IMG/VR virus record: IMGVR_UViG_3300044627_003499
Location: 21,711-85,710 of that record
Source: a virus
Direction: 5' to 3' (one strand)
DNA: 64,000 bases
In this document: positions 41,468 to 60,695 of the stretch, piece after piece
How the letters are laid out: every line of letters begins with the position of its first letter
Numbering within the stretch: position 1 is the stretch's first letter
Notes under the pieces: model-generated
Database searches by the model: none
What the model was told of the DNA's origin: nothing
What the model saw: only the letters and a program-made list of their open reading frames with translations
Made by a program: the position numbers and the translations under genes

Positions 41468-41671
41468 ATGTCCGACAAACCACGCATTCCCGACGCACTT
41501 GACATGCAACGTCTGCATGCCATGCAGCTCGTCGCCAAGATGAAAGAAGCTGCTGATAAACAAGGTGTCCAATTCATCGGGGGTTTTGTCACCCCCGATG
41601 GAGAAAAATTTGTAATGACCAATATGGATGAAGATGATCAACGTATGCTCATGCCTGAGGAACTCAAGTGA
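41468..41671 (+). CDS. Small protein, 67 aa
   Basis: The protein (MSDKPRIPDALDMQRLHAMQ) is helical, followed by a beta-like GVQFIGGFVTPDGEKFVMTN. Its TGA overlaps the next ATG. Function unknown. Confidence 0.6.
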   Translation: MSDKPRIPDALDMQRLHAMQLVAKMKEAADKQGVQFIGGFVTPDGEKFVMTNMDEDDQRMLMPEELK

Positions 41672-41979
41672 CTAACCAACACCTAATCATCCCACCGCGG
41701 GAGCTACTGGATAAGTGGTTCAACTTACCGATGAGTACTCAGGAAATCTTCGTGGTTGCCGCCCAATGGGGCGCCGACCAGGAGCTAAAGGCGTGCGTCG
41801 GATGGCTTGACCGAAATGGTTACTTCGATTCTGCGCATGACCTCGGCGCCGCCCGCCGCTCTAAGCCGCCGAGCTTAAAGGAGCAAGGGTTGACAGCACT
41901 GAAACTACTGAAGCAACGAACTACAGATCCAAACATTATCGAACCGCTTAGCCAAGCAGTGGAGCAACTCGATGACTAA
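41668..41979 (+). CDS. QWGADQEL family small protein, copy 1
   Basis: The core AAQWGADQELKACVGWLDR, then LGAARRSKPPSLKEQGL, is a module repeated in the proteins at 47802 and 52025. Similar short proteins occur in Synechococcus-type genomes and their phages (from memory). Function unknown. This copy is the most divergent of the three. Confidence 0.65.
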   Translation: MTNQHLIIPPRELLDKWFNLPMSTQEIFVVAAQWGADQELKACVGWLDRNGYFDSAHDLGAARRSKPPSLKEQGLTALKLLKQRTTDPNIIEPLSQAVEQLDD

Positions 41980-42829: not shown

Positions 42830-42855
42830 CGTCCTAGGCATGACGTTAAACTGCT
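42830..42855 (+). promoter_or_regulatory. CGTC pseudoknot leader, copy 1
   Basis: CGTC/GACG stem with loop CTAGGCAT, then TTAAAC and TGCT. GGCA in the loop pairs with TGCT downstream, giving a compact H-type pseudoknot five bases after the previous stop codon. Confidence 0.65.
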
Positions 42856-42881: not shown

Positions 42882-43754
42882 ATGGACTTTAAAAGTATTA
42901 ATGCTGCTTTTGATATTGATAAAGTGAGGCACCGCGCTGCCATGCATTATCAAAAGTACAAGTCACCTTCAGGTTACCCAAACTGGTTAAAGATACTTGA
43001 CAAAGTTGACATAGCTCATAACGTAATTCATGAAGTCCAAAAGGAAATTGGTAGCTTTGGATTGACACGAGAGTTATCTCAAGAAGAGAATGCTGCCTTG
43101 GTTGTTACAGGCGCTATTGCATCATTGTCTCCACCTATTTGCGTGCATGAAAACATAATAGAAGCGCTTGCAAATACAGATGTTAAGCCAATGGAAACAC
43201 CTGAATATGCATTGCCGTTCTTTATATTTCTTTTGCCAAAAGATTTCAAGTTTACAACTAAACTACCTGACTACCAAGGTTTTGATTTAAATTTTTATGT
43301 AGCATTTGCTGCATGTATTCCTGACTGTGTGAAAGTAACTTACATAAGTGAAACTACTGTTTGTTATGGTTCATACCAATGGACTGAAATTATTACAGAA
43401 AAAGATGGAGCCAAGGAAGAAGATTACATCCTGGAAAAGTTCATGAAAAATCTGATACTTATGTATATGTATGAGCCCAAGTATTTGACAGAAGAAACCA
43501 TTAAGCTACCCACAAAGGGCAAAGGCTTTGGTTCTAGTGAAAAAGATAAGCCATTCCAAATGCGTTGGCTAGGTAAAAACTATAAGCAAGTACGACAAAC
43601 AATTGTATACAAAGACAATACTGTTGATCCAGATAACAAACGATCTGTCCGAGCACATTGGCGTCGTGGACATTGGCACACAGTATGCCATGGCCCCAAA
43701 CACAAACAACGCAAGCAACAGTGGTTTAAACCTGTGTTTGTTAATCAGGATTAA
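42882..43754 (+). CDS. Unknown protein with HWRRGHWH C-terminal motif, 290 aa
   Basis: The C-terminal 40 residues (SVRAHWRRGHWHTVCHGPKH, then KQQWFKPVFVN) match a domain end seen in many plasmid and phage hypothetical proteins, where it usually reads RxGHWRxQxxG...RxxWIxP. The rest is alpha/beta with cysteines. The gene is AT-rich compared with its neighbours. Function unknown. Confidence 0.6.
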   Translation: MDFKSINAAFDIDKVRHRAAMHYQKYKSPSGYPNWLKILDKVDIAHNVIHEVQKEIGSFGLTRELSQEENAALVVTGAIASLSPPICVHENIIEALANTDVKPMETPEYALPFFIFLLPKDFKFTTKLPDYQGFDLNFYVAFAACIPDCVKVTYISETTVCYGSYQWTEIITEKDGAKEEDYILEKFMKNLILMYMYEPKYLTEETIKLPTKGKGFGSSEKDKPFQMRWLGKNYKQVRQTIVYKDNTVDPDNKRSVRAHWRRGHWHTVCHGPKHKQRKQQWFKPVFVNQD

Positions 43755-45612: not shown

Positions 45613-45840
45613 ATGCCTGATTACACTGACGATCAACTACTTGCCATGGCAATGGCAAACCTTGGTGAGTACATTCATGACAACTCACCGCATTACATTC
45701 TGATTGAAGAAGATCCTCGCAATGAGGATGACTACGACACGTGGGACTATGGCACTGAGCCATTACCACATGATCACACTTGGCAACACACATCAATTGA
45801 TGTGAGTGTAAGCCCAAGTGAGGGGGACATGGCGGAATAG
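45613..45840 (+). CDS. Small acidic protein, 75 aa, ending inside the tRNA gene
   Basis: A D, E, Y and H-rich protein (MPDYTDDQLLAMAMANLGEY). The last six codons, including the TAG stop, lie within the tRNA-Leu gene. The ATG at 45613 is preferred over an in-frame GTG at 45598. Confidence 0.55.
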   Translation: MPDYTDDQLLAMAMANLGEYIHDNSPHYILIEEDPRNEDDYDTWDYGTEPLPHDHTWQHTSIDVSVSPSEGDMAE

Positions 45841-45908
45841 GTAGACGCAACGGACTTAAAATCCGTAGGCCATTGGCTGTGAGAGTTCAAGTCTCTCTGT
45901 CCCTACCA
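45823..45908 (+). tRNA. tRNA-Leu (anticodon UAA)
   Basis: Acceptor GGGGACA pairs with TGTCCCT (one G-U), the D-arm starts GCGG, the anticodon arm is ACGGA-CTTAAAA-TCCGT with UAA, a long class II variable arm follows, and the T-arm is GAGAG-TTCAAGT-CTCTC. The discriminator A is followed by an encoded CCA. The upstream gene ends inside it and the next gene starts 22 nt after it, the same placement as the T-loop elements. Confidence 0.95.
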
Positions 45909-46343: not shown

Positions 46344-46688
46344 ATGGACACACAACCTTCAAATGATTACATTGACCTTGACCTTGTTGACAAGGTGCTT
46401 GCATTAGTACCAGAGCAGGCATGGTCTTTAGTATTGACCGCTATTGTTAGCGGCATTGTTGATGAGATGCCATCGACTGTGCTCCAGGAATTGACTGGAG
46501 ATGTAGAAAGATTTGACCGTGCTGAAGAAATCTTAACTTCGTATTACAGTGGCACAGATCAACGCAATGCTTTAATCCAAGATGCATTCAAACTTATTGG
46601 TACAGAAAACACATTGCATCTTTTAGATGCAATGCAATTAAACAAGTATGTTGAATCTCTTGAACTTAACACTGAAACCAATGACTGA
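46344..46688 (+). CDS. Unknown helical protein, 114 aa
   Basis: An acidic all-helical protein (MDTQPSNDYIDLDLVDKVLA). Its end overlaps the first cassette gene. It precedes the GC-rich cassette region. Confidence 0.6.
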   Translation: MDTQPSNDYIDLDLVDKVLALVPEQAWSLVLTAIVSGIVDEMPSTVLQELTGDVERFDRAEEILTSYYSGTDQRNALIQDAFKLIGTENTLHLLDAMQLNKYVESLELNTETND

Positions 46689-46905
46689 CCAACCGATATC
46701 CCCCGCCGCTCAGGCGGTTTACAGCGCAGTGCTTGAAATTTGCCCTGCGCCTGCCGATGAGATTGCCGCCGCCGCCCTGCGAGCTGCTGCTGATCAGGTG
46801 GTGCCGCTTCATATCTGTGGCACTAACGCGACCCGTGCTCAAACCCGCCTTGGAATACGCCACAAACTGCTCGCTCTCGCCGCCGAACTGGAGGGTACCA
46901 AATGA
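46681..46905 (+). CDS. SPAAQAV family cassette protein, copy 1
   Basis: The protein (MTDQPISPAAQAVYSAVLEI) has the core ALRAAADQVVP and the end LLALAAELEG. Related copies lie at 48315, 48840 and 52342. Similar proteins occur in Synechococcus-type genomes from memory. The role is unknown. It overlaps the next gene by 4 nt (ATGA). Confidence 0.65.
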   Translation: MTDQPISPAAQAVYSAVLEICPAPADEIAAAALRAAADQVVPLHICGTNATRAQTRLGIRHKLLALAAELEGTK

Positions 46906-47385
46906 CTGACGCCATCATGCTTACCAAGAACACAGACCAACTTCGCCAACAAGTAGCAGCTCACGTCGCTGCTGACTCCATCACTCAAGGCGTTTACTGG
47001 GACGAAAGCAACAAACGCGGTTGCTTTATTGGGTGCTTGGCGCACTCTGAAGATCCAGGGATTAACGAGCAAACCTATGGCTTGCCTGTAATGGTGCAGC
47101 GTATTGCTGAGTCGATCTTTGAAGCGTTGTCTGACGATGAAGCCAAAGCATTTTTTGCTGCATTGCCTGATGCAGTGAGCTGCGATGGCAAAGACTTAAT
47201 CAAAGTCGGCTGGCAGTTCTTGGCTGCTGAGCTGCGGGCATTGCCTGAGCAACCTGCCGAGGTTCAGGTAGTTATTGATCCTGTTATTGCAGGTATAGAT
47301 CTGCTTGCCAGTGGTCAGGAATGGGCTGTTGCTGATGCTGCTGCTGTTGCTGATGCTGCTGCTGATGCTGATGCTGCTGCTTGGG
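46858..47385 (+). repeat. Direct repeat, copy A (about 528 nt)
   Basis: By eye this stretch is identical to 49116-49643, offset by 2258 nt. It covers the end of the SPAAQAV gene and most of the alanine-repeat protein gene. Identity of this length implies recent duplication or gene conversion. Confidence 0.85.
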
Positions 47386-47603
47386 CTGCTGATGCTGCTG
47401 CTAATGCTGCTCGTGCTGCTGCTGCTGCTGCTGCTGCTCGTGCTGATTGGGCTGCTGATGCTGCTGCTTGGGCTGCTGATGCTGCTGCTGCTGCTAATGG
47501 TGCTGTTTGGACTGCTGCTGCTGATGCTGCTCGTCGTCGGCAACGTGACACTCTGCTGGCTCTGATTAGCCAAGCGCCAGTGCTGGAGGTAAGTAATGAC
47601 TGA
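46902..47603 (+). CDS. Alanine-repeat protein, copy 1, 233 aa
   Basis: The first 135 residues are a regular domain (MTDAIMLTKNTDQLRQQVAA, DESNKRGCFIGCLAHSEDPG). Residues about 143-215 are degenerate alanine repeats (ADAAAWAADAAANAA), then a conserved end RRRQRDTLLALISQAPV. The repeat is coded by GCTGCTGAT-like units and differs in number from copy 2. The domain is common in Synechococcus and other phage and bacterial genomes, with unknown function. Confidence 0.7.
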   Translation: MTDAIMLTKNTDQLRQQVAAHVAADSITQGVYWDESNKRGCFIGCLAHSEDPGINEQTYGLPVMVQRIAESIFEALSDDEAKAFFAALPDAVSCDGKDLIKVGWQFLAAELRALPEQPAEVQVVIDPVIAGIDLLASGQEWAVADAAAVADAAADADAAAWAADAAANAARAAAAAAAARADWAADAAAWAADAAAAANGAVWTAAADAARRRQRDTLLALISQAPVLEVSND

Positions 47604-47805
47604 CCAAGAACTGATAGAGCTTATGCCCGAGACCATGCGAGACGAGTTCAGCTATGCCGCCAGTGTTTGCAGCGATGCGACTGGCGGTAAAGTCAAGCCC
47701 GGCATCTTCCGTGTGGCGCTTAACACCGCTGCACTGGAGTATGCCCGTGCTGTGCTAAGCTCTGCCACTAAGCCGTCGCTACTGGAGCGGGAGGCTGCGC
47801 GATGA
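47596..47805 (+). CDS. Small cassette protein, 69 aa
   Basis: The protein (MTDQELIELMPETMRDEFSY) starts within the previous gene and overlaps the next by 4 nt. Its first residues parallel those of the gene at 49827 (MTDRELIERL). Confidence 0.6.
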   Translation: MTDQELIELMPETMRDEFSYAASVCSDATGGKVKPGIFRVALNTAALEYARAVLSSATKPSLLEREAAR

Positions 47806-48140
47806 ACACCATCACCCCACCGCCGGAGCTGGTGCAGCAGTGGATCAAGGAGTGTGACCGGCCAGACGATCCATGCTGGCAGGAGTATGAGCAAGACATC
47901 GCCATCCGCGCCGCCCAATGGGGTGCCGACCAGGAGCTGGAGGCGTGTTGTGAGTGGACCCAGGGGTATGCCGAATGTGGCGACTCACTTCGCGCCGCCC
48001 GCCGCCCCAAGCCCCCGAGCTTGAAGAAGCAGGCGCTTAAAGCAGTTAACGAAATGTCTGACTGCATGAGCGCAGGATTTGTACCGAAACGCAGCGATCT
48101 TGACGCTATCCGCCGCGCCCTGGAGGCGCTACCTGAATGA
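47802..48140 (+). CDS. QWGADQEL family cassette protein, copy 2
   Basis: The core AAQWGADQELEACCEWTQGY, then LRAARRPKPPSLKKQALKA, closely matches copy 3 at 52025. The start is MNTITPPPELVQQWIKECDR. Coupled to both neighbours by ATGA overlaps. Confidence 0.7.
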   Translation: MNTITPPPELVQQWIKECDRPDDPCWQEYEQDIAIRAAQWGADQELEACCEWTQGYAECGDSLRAARRPKPPSLKKQALKAVNEMSDCMSAGFVPKRSDLDAIRRALEALPE

Positions 48141-48322
48141 AGCCAGAGCATAAACGGGCTCTCCGTTGCTTTCTTCTTGAGAAACTCCGCGAGGCGACGT
48201 ATCTCCAGTTAAGCGAACTAGCCGAAACTCATGATTGCCAGCCGTTTGATATGGCTGTACAATTTGAGATTGAGGTTGGACGTATTGAAAAATTCTTTTG
48301 TTACCCGCACTACGATGACTGA
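48137..48322 (+). CDS. Small cassette protein, 61 aa
   Basis: The protein (MKPEHKRALRCFLLEKLREA) has a helix-turn-helix-like pattern (LQLSELAETHDCQPFDMAVQ). It starts in the preceding gene's stop and overlaps the following gene. Confidence 0.6.
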   Translation: MKPEHKRALRCFLLEKLREATYLQLSELAETHDCQPFDMAVQFEIEVGRIEKFFCYPHYDD

Positions 48323-48536
48323 ACCTCTCTCCCCCGCTGCGCAATCAGTCCTAGATGCCTATTGGAAGAGTTCATGGGATCTTCCCTTGCAGCACGAAGA
48401 CCGTTACGCCATAGCCGCCGTCCTGCGAGCTGCTGCAAAACAAAGTACCTTTGCCGACGTAGCGGTAAATAAAACGATTGAGGTAGTCCCTGTTGACATT
48501 CTCCTCGCCATCGCCGCCGAGCTGGAGGGCCAATGA
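48315..48536 (+). CDS. SPAAQAV family cassette protein, copy 2
   Basis: Core LSPAAQSVLDAYW, then AVLRAAAKQSTFADVAVNKT, shared almost exactly with the copy at 52342 (AKQSIFADVAINKT). It ends LLAIAAELEG. Confidence 0.65.
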   Translation: MTEPLSPAAQSVLDAYWKSSWDLPLQHEDRYAIAAVLRAAAKQSTFADVAVNKTIEVVPVDILLAIAAELEGQ

Positions 48537-48847
48537 AACTCGAAATTAAACTCACCGACGAGCGCTACAGCCAGGGATCCGTTGACGAACCCGGCGAAAT
48601 GACCACCACCTGGGAGGCCGACATGGACGACTGTTCAGTTCATGCTTGGTTCAAGGTCTTTGAGAGCGTCCTTGGAGCCGCCGGCATGACCGAAAAGCTC
48701 ATCATGCGGGGCGCCTGTCAGCTTGCCTTCAATGAATACCGTGCAATCGAGGACATGGTGAAGCTAAGCAAGGACTACGACCTGGACTTTGCTGCCGAGC
48801 GGGAGGGTACCAGTTGTTCCACTTATCTAACAGATCCCAATGACTGA
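48533..48847 (+). CDS. Unknown cassette protein, 104 aa
   Basis: The protein (MKLEIKLTDERYSQGSVDEP) is beta-rich at first then helical. It overlaps the preceding and following genes by 4 and 8 nt. Confidence 0.6.
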   Translation: MKLEIKLTDERYSQGSVDEPGEMTTTWEADMDDCSVHAWFKVFESVLGAAGMTEKLIMRGACQLAFNEYRAIEDMVKLSKDYDLDFAAEREGTSCSTYLTDPND

Positions 48848-49163
48848 CATCACCCCAAACGACCTCAGCCACCTCAGCGATGAGGCCTTCGAGGCCCTCT
48901 GCCCGCAGGGTTATCACGCCCCAGGACCGGAGCCATTATCACCCGCTGCTCAGGCGGTGCTGGATGCTATTAACAAAGAACTTGACGAAGCCCCTTGGGA
49001 TGTGAGTTTTTTGGCAGGTGTTAGTGCATCCGCCGCCCTGCGAGCTGCTGCTGATCAGGTGGTGCCAGCCACGGAGTACAAATCTTATCAAGTGCGCATG
49101 ATCGCTATGAATGTTCGCCACAAACTGCTCGCTCTCGCCGCCGAACTGGAGGGTACCAAATGA
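48840..49163 (+). CDS. SPAAQAV family cassette protein, copy 3
   Basis: It has an extra N-terminal part (MTDITPNDLSHLSDEAFEAL) before LSPAAQAVLDAINKELDEAP and AALRAAADQVVPAT. The end is identical in DNA to that of copy 1, because it lies in the direct repeat. Confidence 0.65.
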   Translation: MTDITPNDLSHLSDEAFEALCPQGYHAPGPEPLSPAAQAVLDAINKELDEAPWDVSFLAGVSASAALRAAADQVVPATEYKSYQVRMIAMNVRHKLLALAAELEGTK

Positions 49164-49643
49164 CTGACGCCATCATGCTTACCAAGAACACAGACCAACT
49201 TCGCCAACAAGTAGCAGCTCACGTCGCTGCTGACTCCATCACTCAAGGCGTTTACTGGGACGAAAGCAACAAACGCGGTTGCTTTATTGGGTGCTTGGCG
49301 CACTCTGAAGATCCAGGGATTAACGAGCAAACCTATGGCTTGCCTGTAATGGTGCAGCGTATTGCTGAGTCGATCTTTGAAGCGTTGTCTGACGATGAAG
49401 CCAAAGCATTTTTTGCTGCATTGCCTGATGCAGTGAGCTGCGATGGCAAAGACTTAATCAAAGTCGGCTGGCAGTTCTTGGCTGCTGAGCTGCGGGCATT
49501 GCCTGAGCAACCTGCCGAGGTTCAGGTAGTTATTGATCCTGTTATTGCAGGTATAGATCTGCTTGCCAGTGGTCAGGAATGGGCTGTTGCTGATGCTGCT
49601 GCTGTTGCTGATGCTGCTGCTGATGCTGATGCTGCTGCTTGGG
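49116..49643 (+). repeat. Direct repeat, copy B (about 528 nt)
   Basis: This is the second copy of the repeat at 46858-47385. After 49643 the two copies differ by insertions of alanine repeat units, then become similar again at the conserved gene end. Confidence 0.85.
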
Positions 49644-49834
49644 TTGCTGATGCTGCTGCTTGGGCTGCTGATGCTGCTGCTAATGCTGCTCGTGCTGATT
49701 GGGCTGCTGCTGCTGCTCGTGCTGCTTGGGCTGCTGATGCTGCTGCTGCTGATGCTGATGCTCGTCGTCGGCAACGTGACACTCTGCTGGCTCTGATTAG
49801 CCAAACGCCAGTGCTGGAGGGTGGCAATGACTGA
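49160..49834 (+). CDS. Alanine-repeat protein, copy 2, 224 aa
   Basis: The first 165 residues match copy 1 residue for residue. The repeat region then differs (AWVADAAAWAADAAANAARA) and the end is RRRQRDTLLALISQTPV. The start overlaps the previous stop. Confidence 0.7.
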   Translation: MTDAIMLTKNTDQLRQQVAAHVAADSITQGVYWDESNKRGCFIGCLAHSEDPGINEQTYGLPVMVQRIAESIFEALSDDEAKAFFAALPDAVSCDGKDLIKVGWQFLAAELRALPEQPAEVQVVIDPVIAGIDLLASGQEWAVADAAAVADAAADADAAAWVADAAAWAADAAANAARADWAAAAARAAWAADAAAADADARRRQRDTLLALISQTPVLEGGND

Positions 49835-50282
49835 CCGCGAACTGATCGAACGCCTGCTGTTCCTCGCTGAAACGGCTGAGGACTACTTCATCTACTGCGA
49901 ACTGCGGGAGCTGGCTGCCGCCCTGGAGGCCCAGCCCGACCCGCAGGGGCTAATGCCCGAAGTAGATGACATTCTGCGTTTGGCTGAAATCATCCGTAGG
50001 GTTGACGGCAACCACGACAAAGGCGCTGCTGCGTTGGCGGAGGCAATACTGTCACACCCTGACTGCAGCTATGACAGCCCCGCCATTGAGCCCGAGCCGC
50101 AGGGGCCGAGCCTCGCCCATGAGGCATACGTCGCTTTTGTTCAAATCTGCAAGGGCAATTCGGATGACGCCGGCACCTATGAGGCTGACGAAGAACTTGT
50201 CAGACGCGCTCTTAAGCGGCTCAGTGATCTGGAGGTGGGCCGCCCCGCCATCGAGCCAGTGCCTGGGGCAAAAGGTGAATAA
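49827..50282 (+). CDS. Unknown cassette protein, 151 aa
   Basis: The protein (MTDRELIERLLFLAETAEDY) is acidic and helical with two P and E-rich linkers (IEPEPQGPS). The ATG at 49827 overlaps the previous gene. Function unknown. Confidence 0.6.
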   Translation: MTDRELIERLLFLAETAEDYFIYCELRELAAALEAQPDPQGLMPEVDDILRLAEIIRRVDGNHDKGAAALAEAILSHPDCSYDSPAIEPEPQGPSLAHEAYVAFVQICKGNSDDAGTYEADEELVRRALKRLSDLEVGRPAIEPVPGAKGE

Positions 50283-50629
50283 TGAAGTGTCGCAAATGCA
50301 ATAGCAAGAACACACGTGTTATTTGCACTGATCACTTTGATACATTCACTAAGCGTTACTGCCGATGTTTTAATTGCAATTCAAAGTTTCGAACTGTTGA
50401 ATACTATGAAGAACGGAAGCCTGGCCCCCCGCCTGGCACACCAAGAACACGTAACATAACGCGTGGTGAGTCCCATGGTTCTGCAGTATTTCAAGAGAAG
50501 GACATCCGCATGATGCGCACTCTCTATCAACAAGGCACAACCTTGGTATCCATCGCAACTAAATACGGGACAAGTTCTTCTTACGTGTCACGCATTGTTA
50601 ACTACAAATCATGGAGCCACATTAAATGA
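50282..50629 (+). CDS. Zinc ribbon plus HTH protein, 115 aa
   Basis: The N-terminus (MKCRKCNSKNTRVI, then YCRCFNCNSKFRTVEYYE) is a four-cysteine ribbon like that of NrdR. The C-terminal 50 residues (DIRMMRTLYQQGTTLVSIAT, then YGTSSSYVSRIVNYKSWSHI) form a helix-turn-helix. It is probably a transcription factor. It marks the return to lower GC after the cassette region. Confidence 0.7.
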   Translation: MKCRKCNSKNTRVICTDHFDTFTKRYCRCFNCNSKFRTVEYYEERKPGPPPGTPRTRNITRGESHGSAVFQEKDIRMMRTLYQQGTTLVSIATKYGTSSSYVSRIVNYKSWSHIK

Positions 50630-50922
50630 CCGCTGCTAAGTACGACTTCAACATTGGTGATCGTGTTGCCGAGCGTCCCAAGTCACATGGGTTGTTTGCT
50701 GTAAGTAAAGAGGCTGAAGAGATTGTTAAACGCAATAGGTCTCAAAGGTATGGCACCATCGTTGGCTATGACACACAGCTAAACAAAAGTGGTAAACGCA
50801 TGAATATGTTGCTTGTGCAATGGGATCACCTCAAGTCCCCAATGAAACATGCAAGGTGCAGGATCTGTCCCATTGATCAGCTTGCTACATTGACAAAACA
50901 AATCATTGTCCCAGGGGAATGA
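50626..50922 (+). CDS. Unknown basic protein, 98 aa
   Basis: The sequence (MTAAKYDFNIGDRVAERPKS, then RYGTIVGYDTQLN, VQWDHLKSP) has a KOW/Tudor-like beta pattern around GDRV and GTIVG. It could bind RNA or protein. Coupled by overlap to both neighbours. Confidence 0.6.
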   Translation: MTAAKYDFNIGDRVAERPKSHGLFAVSKEAEEIVKRNRSQRYGTIVGYDTQLNKSGKRMNMLLVQWDHLKSPMKHARCRICPIDQLATLTKQIIVPGE

Positions 50923-50924
50923 CC

Positions 50925-51575
50925 ATGGATGTATCACTTGTTTGGGTCACGCCTCAAGCTGAAGAGTTGATCACACGCATGGCTCGGGTGTCAGCTCCAA
51001 AAAATCAAGGGAATATGGAGACTGCCCCTAAGTTGTTGCGTTATTTGATTACGCACCAGCATTGGAGCCCGTACGAAATGGCTAACATGTGCGTTGAAAT
51101 CAACACAACACGTGCAATATCTGCACAAGTTATTCGCCATCGTTCGTTTAGCTTTCAAGAATTTAGTCAGCGCTACGCAGATATCAATGAGCTTGGCTCA
51201 GCTGTTATCCCACACCTGCGTCGTCAAGACCACAGCAATAGACAAAACAGTATCGACGACTTGACATCGGAAGATGTTGCCAACTTCTATCGGCGCATTA
51301 GTCAACTCTTTGAGGATACTGAGCATCTCTATCGTGAGATGGTAAGTCATGGCATTGCCAAAGAGTGCGCCAGGAACATCTTGCCGATGGGTACGCAGAC
51401 TAAGATTTACATGAACGGTTCGCTCCGTTCGTGGATACATTACCTGCAGCTAAGAACTTCCAATGGGACCCAAGCAGAACACAAACAAATCGCAGAAGAA
51501 ATCAAACGAATCTTCTGTGCACAATTCCCAGTCATTGGAGAAGCTGTGTTCTCAGAAGATCCAGGGATTGCCTGA
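50925..51575 (+). CDS. thyX: Flavin-dependent thymidylate synthase
   Basis: ThyX makes dTMP from dUMP with methylene-tetrahydrofolate and NADPH. The signature RHRSFSFQEFSQRY lies at residues 71-84, followed by TSNGTQAEHKQIAEEI with the conserved arginine region before it (GSLRSWIHYLQLR). With the phage dCTP deaminase it covers the dCTP to dTMP route. The ATG at 50925 is favoured because GGGGA lies 7 nt upstream, and another ATG at 50919 overlaps the previous stop. It ends before a strong terminator. Confidence 0.95.
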   Translation: MDVSLVWVTPQAEELITRMARVSAPKNQGNMETAPKLLRYLITHQHWSPYEMANMCVEINTTRAISAQVIRHRSFSFQEFSQRYADINELGSAVIPHLRRQDHSNRQNSIDDLTSEDVANFYRRISQLFEDTEHLYREMVSHGIAKECARNILPMGTQTKIYMNGSLRSWIHYLQLRTSNGTQAEHKQIAEEIKRIFCAQFPVIGEAVFSEDPGIA

Positions 51576-51591
51576 GGTTTCTTCTGGTAAG

Positions 51592-51631
51592 CCTGTTGAA
51601 TCAGACAACAACTTCAGCAGGTTGCTTTTTT
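51592..51631 (+). terminator. Rho-independent terminator after thyX
   Basis: CCTGTTGAA pairs with TTCAGCAGG (9 bp, one G-U) and the stem is followed by TTGC and six T residues. Confidence 0.85.
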
Positions 51632-51720
51632 AATTCCTTGATGGCACGCTTGGACTCTACATCCTTGCGTATTTGTTTTTTCTTTTGGTTTGCCAGGTAC
51701 ACAAGCAGTGCTTGATCCAT
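51601..51720 (-). CDS. Possible small minus-strand protein, 39 aa
   Basis: The frame encodes MDQALLVYLANQKKKQIRKD and a basic helix ending KKQPAEVVV. It lies opposite the thyX terminator. The helical, charged composition is protein-like, but there is no Shine-Dalgarno, so it remains doubtful. Confidence 0.35.
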   Translation of the reverse strand: MDQALLVYLANQKKKQIRKDVESKRAIKELKKQPAEVVV

Positions 51721-51791
51721 TATTCTGTATCTGTTGTTACTGAAAGTTTACTCCAATTGATGTACACCATGTCGTTCACTGTGTAACACAA

Positions 51792-52028
51792 ATGACACCA
51801 AGCGAATACCACCGCCTCGCACGTTTTAATTGTTTGCAAGAGTATGATTGCTGCGCTAAACCAGATGACTTTATTGAAGTAACCGAATGGTACAACGGTG
51901 AAGGTTTTGATGTACACCTTAGTACCAGTGCTGGTGAACAGCGTATGTCACTTAGCTGGGGTGAGTACCAAGCATTGAAAACAACCCTTGGTGACTGGGC
52001 TGAAAACAATCTGGAGGATGAAAAATGA
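51792..52028 (+). CDS. Unknown protein, 78 aa
   Basis: An acidic protein (MTPSEYHRLARFNCLQEYDC) with beta-rich middle (GFDVHLSTSAGEQRMSLSWG). It overlaps the next gene by 4 nt. Confidence 0.6.
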   Translation: MTPSEYHRLARFNCLQEYDCCAKPDDFIEVTEWYNGEGFDVHLSTSAGEQRMSLSWGEYQALKTTLGDWAENNLEDEK

Positions 52029-52345
52029 CTAATCAACACCCCATCACCTTACCGCCAGCAATTCTGCAAAAATTACGCAGCACAACTCCAACTTCAGGTT
52101 GGCATCTTGATGCTTGGATTGCTGAGCAAGCCGCCCAATGGGGTGCCGACCAGGAGCTGGAGGCGTGTTGTGAGTGGGTCCAAGGTTATGCCGAATATGG
52201 CGACTCACTTCGCGCCGCCCGCCGCCCCAAGCCCCCGAGCTTGAAGGAACAGGCGCTTGAGGTATTTGAAGCCTTGATCCATGGCGATGCAAGTGGGCTT
52301 GACGTTGGAGTAATCCGCCGCGCCCTGGAGGCGCTACCTGAATGA
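52025..52345 (+). CDS. QWGADQEL family cassette protein, copy 3
   Basis: The core AAQWGADQELEACCEWVQGY is shared with copy 2 at 47802, also at DNA level. The end VIRRALEALPE matches too. It is separated from the main cassette region by thyX and its neighbours, which suggests a cassette moved or was split. Confidence 0.7.
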   Translation: MTNQHPITLPPAILQKLRSTTPTSGWHLDAWIAEQAAQWGADQELEACCEWVQGYAEYGDSLRAARRPKPPSLKEQALEVFEALIHGDASGLDVGVIRRALEALPE

Positions 52346-52554
52346 CTGAACTATCACCACAAGCGCAGGCGGTACTATATGGATTTCGTGCTGTGCCAAA
52401 TCTCATGGATGGGCCGTCTATTGCCGGTGCCCTGCGAGCTGCTGCAAAACAAAGTATCTTTGCCGACGTAGCGATAAATAAAACGATTGAGGTAGTCCCT
52501 GTTGACATCCTCCTCGCCATAGCCGTCGAGCTGGAGGGTGTGACCTCACGGTGA
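52342..52554 (+). CDS. SPAAQAV family cassette protein, copy 4
   Basis: The protein (MTELSPQAQAVLYGFRAVPN) has GALRAAAKQSIFADVAINKT and LLAIAVELEGV. The last 45 residues are nearly the same as in the copy at 48315. Confidence 0.65.
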   Translation: MTELSPQAQAVLYGFRAVPNLMDGPSIAGALRAAAKQSIFADVAINKTIEVVPVDILLAIAVELEGVTSR

Positions 52555-52654: not shown

Positions 52655-52680
52655 CGTCCTAAGCATGACGTTAAACTGCT
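52655..52680 (+). promoter_or_regulatory. CGTC pseudoknot leader, copy 3
   Basis: CGTC/GACG stem, loop CTAAGCAT, TTAAAC, TGCT. AGCA pairs with TGCT. A promoter predicts it at the very 5' end of the mRNA. Confidence 0.7.
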
Positions 52681-56726: not shown

Positions 56727-57833
56727 GTGACCCAAACACCGCTTGACATGATGAGTGAAGAATGGATGGATAACATCCAGGCTGAAGCTCAAACCGAACC
56801 ACCTTCTCTAAAAACTCTCAACAAAATGACTGTGAAAAAAACTTCTGCTCTTGCTACACGCGGTCTGGAATCTTTCAAGATGTTCCAGTCCAAAGAATTT
56901 GTATCGGGTTACCAGAACCTGGTCACTATCCAACCACTGAACAAGTCCAAGACTCGTGGTTGGTTTGTGCGTAAGTCTGATCTGGATACCTGCGGTTGGA
57001 CCGCAACTGAAGATCAGTTTGCCAAGGGTTCAGTTATTTGGAACTACAAGCAAACTTTTGGTATGGCTCCCAACACTTCAATTGAAGAAGGGTTGAATTT
57101 TGTTGAGCCTCGCCTTCAAGTGCTGTTGCGTTCTCCCCTGATGGTTGAAGAAACCTCTGGAATGCGCCAAGTGATTGGTTCGTTTGACAATCCGAATGTC
57201 AAAGAATTGTTTGAGGCTGACAAGATTGCATCCGATCTTGCCAACAGCAAAGGTGAAATGTACAAGCGCAAGTACAGCGTGCGTACCAAATACCTGGTGT
57301 ATGTACTGACCCAGGACAACAAGCGTGCCCATAAGATTCCTATGGTGCTGACGTTGAAAGGCCTGAATGGTACAGACGTTTCTGAAAAGATTCGTCTGTA
57401 TGAAAAGGAAATGTCCAAGTGCCTGAGCAAAGCACTGGACTCTGAAGTGCCCCTGGCATTCAATGAAAAGTTCTATGCCACTACGGTGTTCTGCCCTGTG
57501 CTGGCAAATGAAATGCGCGGTGCCAACAACGTTGAGATCTGCGCCATTGAATCCTTTGACATCCCTGATTACAGCTCCCAGGAAGATGCAGTCGAATCTT
57601 TGAATCGTCTGTCAATTCCTGATGAAGATCGGGAGTCAACCTGGAAGTATCAAGAGATGTTTCAGGACTACATCAACGTCCATGCCAAGCAGGACTCAGA
57701 CAAACTCGGTGGTGCCTATGGCATCAAGGAAGGTGTTGAGATTTTGCCTGTGTCCCGCACCATGGATCCAGTGGATGTCAAAGCTCTACCTTCTCGCGAT
57801 GAAATCACTGGTGAGGACAGCAGCCTTAGCTGA
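56727..57833 (+). CDS. DUF5895-like protein, 368 aa
   Basis: The protein has SKTRGWFVRKSDLDTCGWTA near residue 75, FVEPRLQVLLRSPLMVEETS near 120 and FYATTVFCPVLANEMRGANN near 250. This resembles the DUF5895 family of cyanobacteria and their phages. The GTG at 56727 or ATG at 56748 could be the start, and neither has a Shine-Dalgarno. Position after SSB suggests a replication or recombination function. Confidence 0.65.
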   Translation: MTQTPLDMMSEEWMDNIQAEAQTEPPSLKTLNKMTVKKTSALATRGLESFKMFQSKEFVSGYQNLVTIQPLNKSKTRGWFVRKSDLDTCGWTATEDQFAKGSVIWNYKQTFGMAPNTSIEEGLNFVEPRLQVLLRSPLMVEETSGMRQVIGSFDNPNVKELFEADKIASDLANSKGEMYKRKYSVRTKYLVYVLTQDNKRAHKIPMVLTLKGLNGTDVSEKIRLYEKEMSKCLSKALDSEVPLAFNEKFYATTVFCPVLANEMRGANNVEICAIESFDIPDYSSQEDAVESLNRLSIPDEDRESTWKYQEMFQDYINVHAKQDSDKLGGAYGIKEGVEILPVSRTMDPVDVKALPSRDEITGEDSSLS

Positions 57834-59819: not shown

Positions 59820-59846
59820 CGTCCTGGTCATGACGTTAAACTGACC
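59820..59846 (+). promoter_or_regulatory. CGTC pseudoknot leader, copy 6 (compensated)
   Basis: CGTC/GACG stem, loop CTGGTCAT, TTAAAC, TGACC. GGTCA pairs with TGACC over 5 bp, replacing the AGCA/TGCT of the other copies. Confidence 0.7.
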
Positions 59847-59993: not shown

Positions 59994-60695
59994 ATGACTC
60001 AAATCACATCAACTAAACTCAACGAGCTTAGTGTCATCAAACTTTACGAGCACTACAATGCTCTTGAAAAATCACTGCCTTTACTTACTCCTGAGTCCCA
60101 GGACTTGGCAAAAGCAGAGCTTGAGAGTTGCGCCAACCTACGGTCTGAAAAAATTGATCGTATCTATTACGCCATGGCGGCGCATGACGACGCCTTGGAA
60201 CGCATCAAGAAAGAAACTGAACTCATTACGCAAGCCAAGCGTCACCACGAATCCCAATTGCGGTCCCTCAAGGGGTTGTTAAACTGGCTGAAGCGGTCAC
60301 TGCCATTTGATACCAACAAAATCACTGGCCGCAACTATCAGTTTACACTTGTAAAGAAGAGGGAGTTAACGGTTGAAGTCTCGTCGGATCCAGACGTTTG
60401 GAGTTCTGAACACAGGCAGCTCTACTGCGTTGAAGAACAAGTCACCACAACTAAAGAAATTGTGCTACGTTCAATGTCAGGAGAAGTTCTTTCCACAAGA
60501 ACAGAACCTGTCACCAAAACTAAAGTACTCCCAAACCTCGATGCCATCCGCGACGCCTACCAAGCCGGACAACTTTTACCAAGTGGGGTCAAGGTCTGTC
60601 AAGAGTACAGCATCCGTTCTAAGCGAATCTATGTCGAGCCCCACGTGGAACTACAAGCATCCGAGTATCCAGGACAATTTCTACCTGAAGATTGA
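59994..60695 (+). CDS. Siphovirus Gp157-like protein, 233 aa
   Basis: A long N-terminal coiled coil (ERIKKETELITQAKRHHESQ, then LRSLKGLLNWLKRSLPF) followed by NYQFTLVKKRELTVEV and a tail of beta strands matches the Gp157 family, found near phage replication and recombination genes. The activity is unknown, although some members have been linked to phage resistance. Its end overlaps the next gene by 65 nt. Confidence 0.7.
   Translation: MTQITSTKLNELSVIKLYEHYNALEKSLPLLTPESQDLAKAELESCANLRSEKIDRIYYAMAAHDDALERIKKETELITQAKRHHESQLRSLKGLLNWLKRSLPFDTNKITGRNYQFTLVKKRELTVEVSSDPDVWSSEHRQLYCVEEQVTTTKEIVLRSMSGEVLSTRTEPVTKTKVLPNLDAIRDAYQAGQLLPSGVKVCQEYSIRSKRIYVEPHVELQASEYPGQFLPED

Follow-up and report, generated by a model that had tools for sequence, protein, structure and literature searches.

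We analyzed a 64-kb window of viral DNA, bases 21711-85710 of the 85.7-kb IMG/VR virus record IMGVR_UViG_3300044627_003499, in which small genes of two families recur: the QWGADQEL family, hereafter QW, and the SPAAQAV family, hereafter SP. Profile searches found exactly three QW genes (41668, 47802, and 52025) and exactly four SP genes (46681, 48315, 48840, and 52342) in the record, all in its early/replication part, and a gene with alanine-rich repeats (the Ala-repeat gene) has two copies in the window (46902 and 49160). A sequence-only reading of the window had proposed all of these copies, and each was confirmed. Their repetition goes beyond chance: there is a 528-bp perfect duplicate, QW genes 2 and 3 are alike over 138 bp at 92% identity, and SP genes 2 and 4 over 119 bp at 92%. 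The same reading had placed the GC content above that of the neighbors, and most 1-kb bins from 47 to 53 kb indeed lie at 0.53-0.57 vs 0.39-0.49 in the flanks (39-46 and 53-62 kb), with the high GC sitting mostly in constant blocks of the genes (64-66%).

These cassettes occupy three slots, A (about 41.67-41.98 kb), B (46.68-50.28 kb), and C (52.03-52.55 kb), in a conserved collinear backbone whose nearby genes include thyX (50919), a GP88-family gene (52702, PF17338), a polA-like gene (53698), and SSB (55633). Using the GP88 gene as an anchor, we collected 80 related viral contigs; the whole comparison set comprises 245 loci, mostly metagenomic contigs, designated by L-numbers. Loci L027-L031 are 93-97% identical to the window over most of the aligned backbone, and L032-L043 are mostly around 70-80% identical. 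Cultured relatives are weak at the DNA level, the nearest being S-CBS2, in addition to the thyX genes of several cyanophages.

Both families are built from constant framework blocks (F) that alternate with variable segments (V), three of the latter in QW and two in SP. Across 71 QW and 66 SP distinct proteins, frameworks averaged 72-81% identity and variable segments 20-25%; frameworks measure 27-48 nt, and variable segments 8-38 residues. We then counted shared segments in a larger set (171 QW and 180 SP proteins), taking 75% identity as the threshold for a common segment. At least one segment was common to 326 of the 14,535 QW pairs, of which 315 shared one, 10 shared two, and a single pair shared all three. 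Among SP proteins, 281 pairs had one or both segments in common, with both in only 5. Tree-like descent would make the segments of a gene travel together.

The frameworks carry the trace of these exchanges. In the thirds of frameworks beside a common segment, DNA identity exceeded background by 0.11-0.22 on 9 of 10 sides, and this gain mostly dropped toward background with distance, which places the crossovers inside the frameworks. A Wilcoxon test at the level of clusters supported the gain on 9 of 10 sides (P = 3e-5 to 2e-2), the right side of SP V1 not being significant. The best common segment exceeded 95% DNA identity between contigs in roughly one quarter to one half of the clusters. Taken together, the variable segments are inherited independently of one another and exchanged by crossovers within framework DNA. 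Their ratio of nonsynonymous to synonymous polymorphism (pN/pS) was 0.14-0.23, for segments chosen by DNA identity, so they are under purifying selection. We also looked for synonymous conservation of the frameworks as DNA elements, but the excess of identical codons over random expectation was only a little above that of core genes, and we do not count it as evidence.

Relatives differ in whole cassettes as well. In slot A, L029 is without QW gene 1 and L028 carries about 1.4 kb extra, while slot B measures 3.6 kb in the window vs 0.8 kb in L028. Breakpoints against close relatives map, in QW, to F1, F3, or the point where the F2 region begins, in SP to F1 or F3, or else to an octamer at the gene start. 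In slot A they lie at 41705 and 41757 (L028) and at 41675 in the start octamer (L029); at the left edge of slot B, L029 departs at 46688, again in the start octamer, and L028 at 46718. One breakpoint, at the right edge of slot B, is an exception (TAATG at 50280, outside frameworks and octamer). In slot C, L027, L028, L031, and L032 break near 52036 and L029 near 52259, and in all nine relatives compared the identity returns at or close to 52510, where SP F3 begins. The Ala-repeat gene and a set of genes encoding DFRALCxEL proteins fill the same slots. The sequence-only reading had described an actively shuffled island and held that a gene order conserved in all relatives would argue against it. 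The close relatives differ in the slots and do not conserve the order, so that the shuffling is strongly supported, but it is spread over three slots rather than one contiguous island.

The start octamer gives the cassettes a common border. Many of them begin ATGACTRA, which holds the start codon, a TGA at offset 1, and a TGA, TAA, or TAG at offset 5. Since these offsets stop both other frames, an upstream gene in either phase terminates there, overlapping by 4 or 8 nt. Among the octamer junctions of the window cassettes, five are in the 8-nt phase and three in the 4-nt phase; the 4-nt overlaps noted in the sequence-only reading hold for some junctions, but those at 46681, 47596, 48315, 48840, and 49827 overlap by 8 nt through ATGACTGA. 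Over all loci, ATGACTRR occurs 646 times without redundancy, vs 178-249 times for the octamer with each other Thr codon, and 446 of the 646 join two open reading frames (ORFs), 274 by 8 nt and 172 by 4 nt, vs only 10-37 joins for each of the others. The joins involve 300 distinct upstream ends (178 in the 8-nt and 122 in the 4-nt phase), and both phases are found downstream of QW, SP, and other genes.

Codon choice and ribosome-binding motifs follow the junction. Where ACT creates the second stop, 191 of 203 genes use it for Thr at position 2; it is used by 9 of the 51 other QW genes with Thr at that position and makes up 28% of the remaining Thr codons in these genes. A motif resembling a Shine-Dalgarno (SD) sequence lies at -16 to -4 in 57.5% of 494 junctions, vs 3-10% of control intervals. 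It is commonly CTGGAG, which encodes a C-terminal "LE," and often lies inside the end of the upstream gene. The 8-nt phase also forces certain C-termini, which is why many of the proteins end in ND, DD, HD, or YD. The Ala-repeat gene illustrates the border: it begins ATGACTGAC in all nine copies examined and ends at AATGACTGA in all eight complete copies, and the genes downstream of it vary among copies. We infer that the octamer acts as a frame-neutral gene junction. The order of the cassettes is directional, with QW followed by SP 129 times and SP followed by QW 17 times in loci that partly overlap.

Table 1. Cassette features of the window (positions in the 64-kb stretch)
Feature	Position	Strand	Details
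QW gene 1, slot A	41668..41979	+	Frameworks 41686-41718, 41764-41799, 41845-41892, 41944-41970
SP gene 1, at the left edge of slot B	46681..46905	+	Frameworks 46696-46728, 46771-46797, 46867-46893
528-bp perfect duplicate	46858..47385 and 49116-49643	+	Copies start just ahead of SP F3 and end inside the Ala repeats
Ala-repeat gene copy 1	46902..47603	+	N-terminal part and C-terminus (PVLEVSND) constant, Ala-rich repeats variable
69-aa gene	47596..47805	+	Begins ATGACTGA; overlaps the Ala-repeat gene by 8 nt
QW gene 2	47802..48140	+	Frameworks 47811-47843, 47916-47951, 47991-48038, 48105-48131
61-aa gene	48137..48322	+	Matches in L027 and L039 only
SP gene 2	48315..48536	+	V2 common to SP gene 4, V1 different
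104-aa gene	48533..48847	+	Weak phrog_6458 match
SP gene 3	48840..49163	+	Extended N-terminus; LSPAAQAV framework at 48936
Ala-repeat gene copy 2	49160..49834	+	Initial 484 nt same as copy 1; repeat region different
Gene with module QGLMPEVDDILRLA..IIRRVDGNHDKGAAALAEAILSHPD	49827..50282	+	Module also in the DFRALCxEL protein of L122
QW gene 3, slot C	52025..52345	+	Frameworks 52043-52075, 52136-52171, 52211-52258, 52310-52336
SP gene 4, slot C	52342..52554	+	F3 begins at 52510

The individual cassettes are listed in Table 1. QW gene 1 begins GTGACTAA, and the gene downstream of it begins ATGACTAA at 41972. The start octamer of SP gene 1 doubles as the end of the preceding gene, and L019, from another sample, carries the same SP gene. 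QW gene 2 has its V1 in common with L009 and its V2 in common with QW gene 3 and others. The sequence-only reading had noticed the same end on two SP genes, which corresponds to the V2, and not the V1, shared by the genes at 48315 and 52342. In SP gene 3, F3 together with the following Ala-repeat gene matches the first copy identically. The gene at 49827 was listed from a GTG at 49821, but the ATG is the more likely start; with the DFRALCxEL protein of L122, it forms a third mosaic set.

The two Ala-repeat genes are otherwise near-identical and differ in their GCT-based Ala-rich repeats (47324-47560 and 49585-49790), a difference consistent with slippage. Matches to the Rfam family isrG at 47334 and 49601 lie inside these repeats and score under the gathering threshold. 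Next to slot B, 50282-50629 encodes a protein with an NrdR-like Zn-ribbon and a helix-turn-helix, with weak matches to endonuclease-type PHROGs, and similar genes adjoin QW and SP genes in other contigs. On the other side, a tRNA-Leu(taa) gene (45823-45908) lies between a PcfJ-like gene and slot B.

Some differences concern the backbone itself. L030 has a free-standing Endonuclease_7 gene (PF02945, 1117-1635) ahead of thyX, and the N-terminal part of its thyX differs, which looks like homing with co-conversion; L031 also has an insertion, near 817-1421. In L029 (11058-11524) and L034 (11070-11572), the start of polA holds an insertion of some 470-500 bp relative to the window, and an Rfam search of the one in L029 gave no match. 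The intergenic repeat CATGACGTTAAACTGC lies at 42839, 43769, 52664, and 55594, and with one mismatch at 59829 (five matches vs 0.66 expected). Copies stand shortly upstream of the backbone genes at 42882, 43822, 52702, and 55633, and the copy at 52664 is closely preceded by a TTGACG..TATAAT pair. The repeat is perhaps a promoter or operator element.

What the proteins do was approached through structure and homology. AlphaFold2 models built from alignments are all-helical for QW (predicted local distance difference test, pLDDT, 85; predicted template modeling score, pTM, 0.53) and three-helix for SP (pLDDT 79, pTM 0.67), and in these models the variable segments are located largely in or beside the loops between helices. 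QW, SP, and Ala-repeat genes had no match in Pfam, NCBIfam, or PADLOC and no informative PHROG match, the single marginal PADLOC match (E 0.045) being to the gene at 49821/49827. A fold search of the QW and SP models gave no PDB match, and a search of PDB sequences gave none for QW and, for SP, weak matches to the glycerol dehydratase gamma subunit (E about 0.012-0.014). In a viral fold library, QW had two significant matches, an uncharacterized protein of an uncultured phage and an entry at 52% identity, the latter probably a QW relative. A role in early host takeover or in counter-defence, the latter suggested in the sequence-only reading, is plausible but conjectural, and for counter-defence the searches spoke neither way. 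More specifically, but only tentatively, the predicted small helical proteins might be early accessory proteins acting on a variable target of the host or of a rival phage.

Several known ways of generating diversity were considered for the exchange. A diversity-generating retroelement was rejected: there is no RVT_1 match for a reverse transcriptase in the 85.7-kb record, where control genomes were positive, adenine-type template/variable repeats are absent, and the segments are unlike one another over their whole sequence and in length, reappearing as blocks. An integron or a tyrosine-recombinase shufflon was likewise rejected, as the record has no PF00589 match (14/14 controls positive). 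PF12684, an exonuclease candidate, also had no match in the record, while the gene at 59994 has a sub-threshold Gp157 match and that at 56727 a DUF5895 match. All of these enzyme negatives are subject to the possible incompleteness of the record. As no tested enzyme was detected, we assume homologous recombination by a diverged phage enzyme or a host enzyme, which is likely the engine; lambdoid phages provide an established case of relaxed-homology recombination (PMC3945230). Under this mechanism, ordinary recombination during co-infection would use the frameworks and junctions as short homologies. The junction would end an upstream frame in either other phase, so that cassettes could insert without breaking the operon, and translational coupling would let a newly arrived neighbor gene be expressed.

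Our overall reading, in which we have good confidence, is that a group of cyanophages has here a region of modular gene cassettes in varying combinations. Several points weigh against it or its parts. Segment pairs are not statistically independent, although the cluster-level test mitigates this; shared descent of N-termini within families accounts for part of the octamer enrichment, but probably not for the whole, because the octamer also stands on Ala-repeat and other genes. The SD and frame logic is read from sequence and translation is inferred from it. RecT, ERF, Rad52, and a tyrosine recombinase were not found in the record, where a diverged enzyme could be missed. A single assembly covers the interior of slot B (47.4-50.28 kb), and the 528-bp duplicate could mislead an assembler. 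Finally, the QW model reaches a pTM of only 0.53, and the role of QW and SP is a guess from position and diversity.

The alternative that survives best is ordinary mosaic drift of non-functional filler, in which neither the proteins nor the junction has a selected role. No function could be assigned to the families and the slots differ even among close relatives, as such drift would have it; a study of cyanophage S-PM2 (PMC4503421) also describes a dispensable ORFan region that was lost on passage with a gain in fitness. We nevertheless consider drift unlikely, given the low pN/pS of the variable segments, the junction-specific choice of the second codon and placement of the SD, and the wide retention in at least 558 stretches of viral contigs. 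As to what selection would favor, one may propose a combinatorial diversification in which a helical scaffold with exchangeable loop segments, recombinable frameworks, and a universal SD plus ATGACTGA junction that would allow expression whatever the order and frame serve as an inhibitor repertoire against variable host or rival targets; we regard this as possible, though on balance somewhat doubtful.

A second alternative, which we rate as quite improbable, is that the combinations are assembly chimeras, the short shared frameworks having led assemblers to join unrelated segments. Most loci are metagenomic contigs, and L019 stops where the window has its 528-bp duplicate, a place at which an assembler would be expected to stop. 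Against this, at least 19 QW cores recur unchanged in contigs that carry different metagenome IDs, including the mosaics L035/L036/L037, L054/L056, and L064/L068, and the k-mers usual in late stages of assembly are longer than the frameworks. The isolates S-CBS2, S-RIP1, and S-H1 also carry the family. The QW protein of S-CBS2 has its V2 in common with L087 at 86% amid a different V1 and V3, and an SP gene follows it with an 8-nt octamer overlap. In S-H1 (L248, 3738-3989), an unrelated protein carries the QW leader MTEQHPITPPPEL, and a full QW gene follows directly. Repeated acquisition of host genes, which the GC-rich frameworks (vs 45-49% in phage core genes) might point to and the sequence-only reading had suggested, is extremely unlikely. 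The QW profile had a match in only 1 of the 300 Cyanobiaceae genomes searched, and 84,980 species genomes scanned with a pattern yielded 3 loci, all of these matches being on small contigs of metagenome-assembled genomes (4.5-13.9 kb for the scan), vs at least 558 matching stretches in viral contigs. The families are phage genes, not host genes.

We found no description of this system in the open-access literature, and we compared it with the closest phenomena. Smug et al. 2023 (PMC10684548) found fragment recombination to be most frequent in receptor-binding proteins, endolysins, and polymerases and expected more in proteins of unknown function. The cassettes share with that domain shuffling the ongoing recombination of fragments between phage proteins, which we see among otherwise dissimilar proteins in the 315 QW pairs, the module of 49827 and the DFRALCxEL protein, and the F1 leader on the S-H1 gene; they differ in that the units are short and belong to small accessory proteins, with crossovers at frameworks and a common gene junction. 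Overlaps of the ATGA (4-nt) or 1-nt kind with termination-reinitiation, and ample SD use for reinitiation in Cyanobacteria, have been described (PMC6728339). The stop/start overlaps and SD-like motifs in the 3' part of the upstream gene, at the joins counted above, resemble these and suggest coupling, but here one octamer serves two upstream phases and recurs after many genes in variable slots.

Three other systems are alike in part. The PeSL of T4-type phages (Arbiol 2010; Comeau 2014, via PMC4503421) is likewise a short border repeat promoting the shuffling of small genes. Judging by the titles of those papers, PeSLs are promoter-terminator motifs, whereas here the repeat is a translational start/stop junction and exchange is also intragenic; inside slot B, each gene runs into the next through a start/stop overlap, which leaves no room between genes for a promoter and stem-loop. 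The ORFan region of the cyanophage S-PM2 is also densely packed with small accessory genes whose synteny is poorly conserved, but it belongs to a T4-like myovirus, and a framework/segment structure is not described for it in the available part of that source (PMC4503421). Ea22 of lambdoid phages is an early accessory protein of high sequence diversity with considerably dissimilar C-termini and a shown prolysogenic function (PMC7093339, PMC10834534), whereas QW and SP are known here from sequence; no sequence relation to Ea22 emerged from the Pfam and NCBIfam searches above, no direct comparison having been made.

The system is best seen as a variant of phage modular shuffling, new in its sub-gene scale and in its frame-neutral junction, with the shuffling itself well supported. 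Phage mosaicism is usually described for genes or large domains; here the exchange units are 8-38 residues, and the positions of crossovers can be read from the sequence. A junction working in both upstream frames would explain how whole cassettes insert without breakage of the operon, and the reading can be tested by what it predicts about the order of genes, their C-termini (ND/DD), and the choice of codons. The families point to small phage proteins that are abundant in aquatic cyanophages but lack annotation. If the selective interpretation is true, the phage population would have a range of inhibitors for targets that vary in the host or in rivals.

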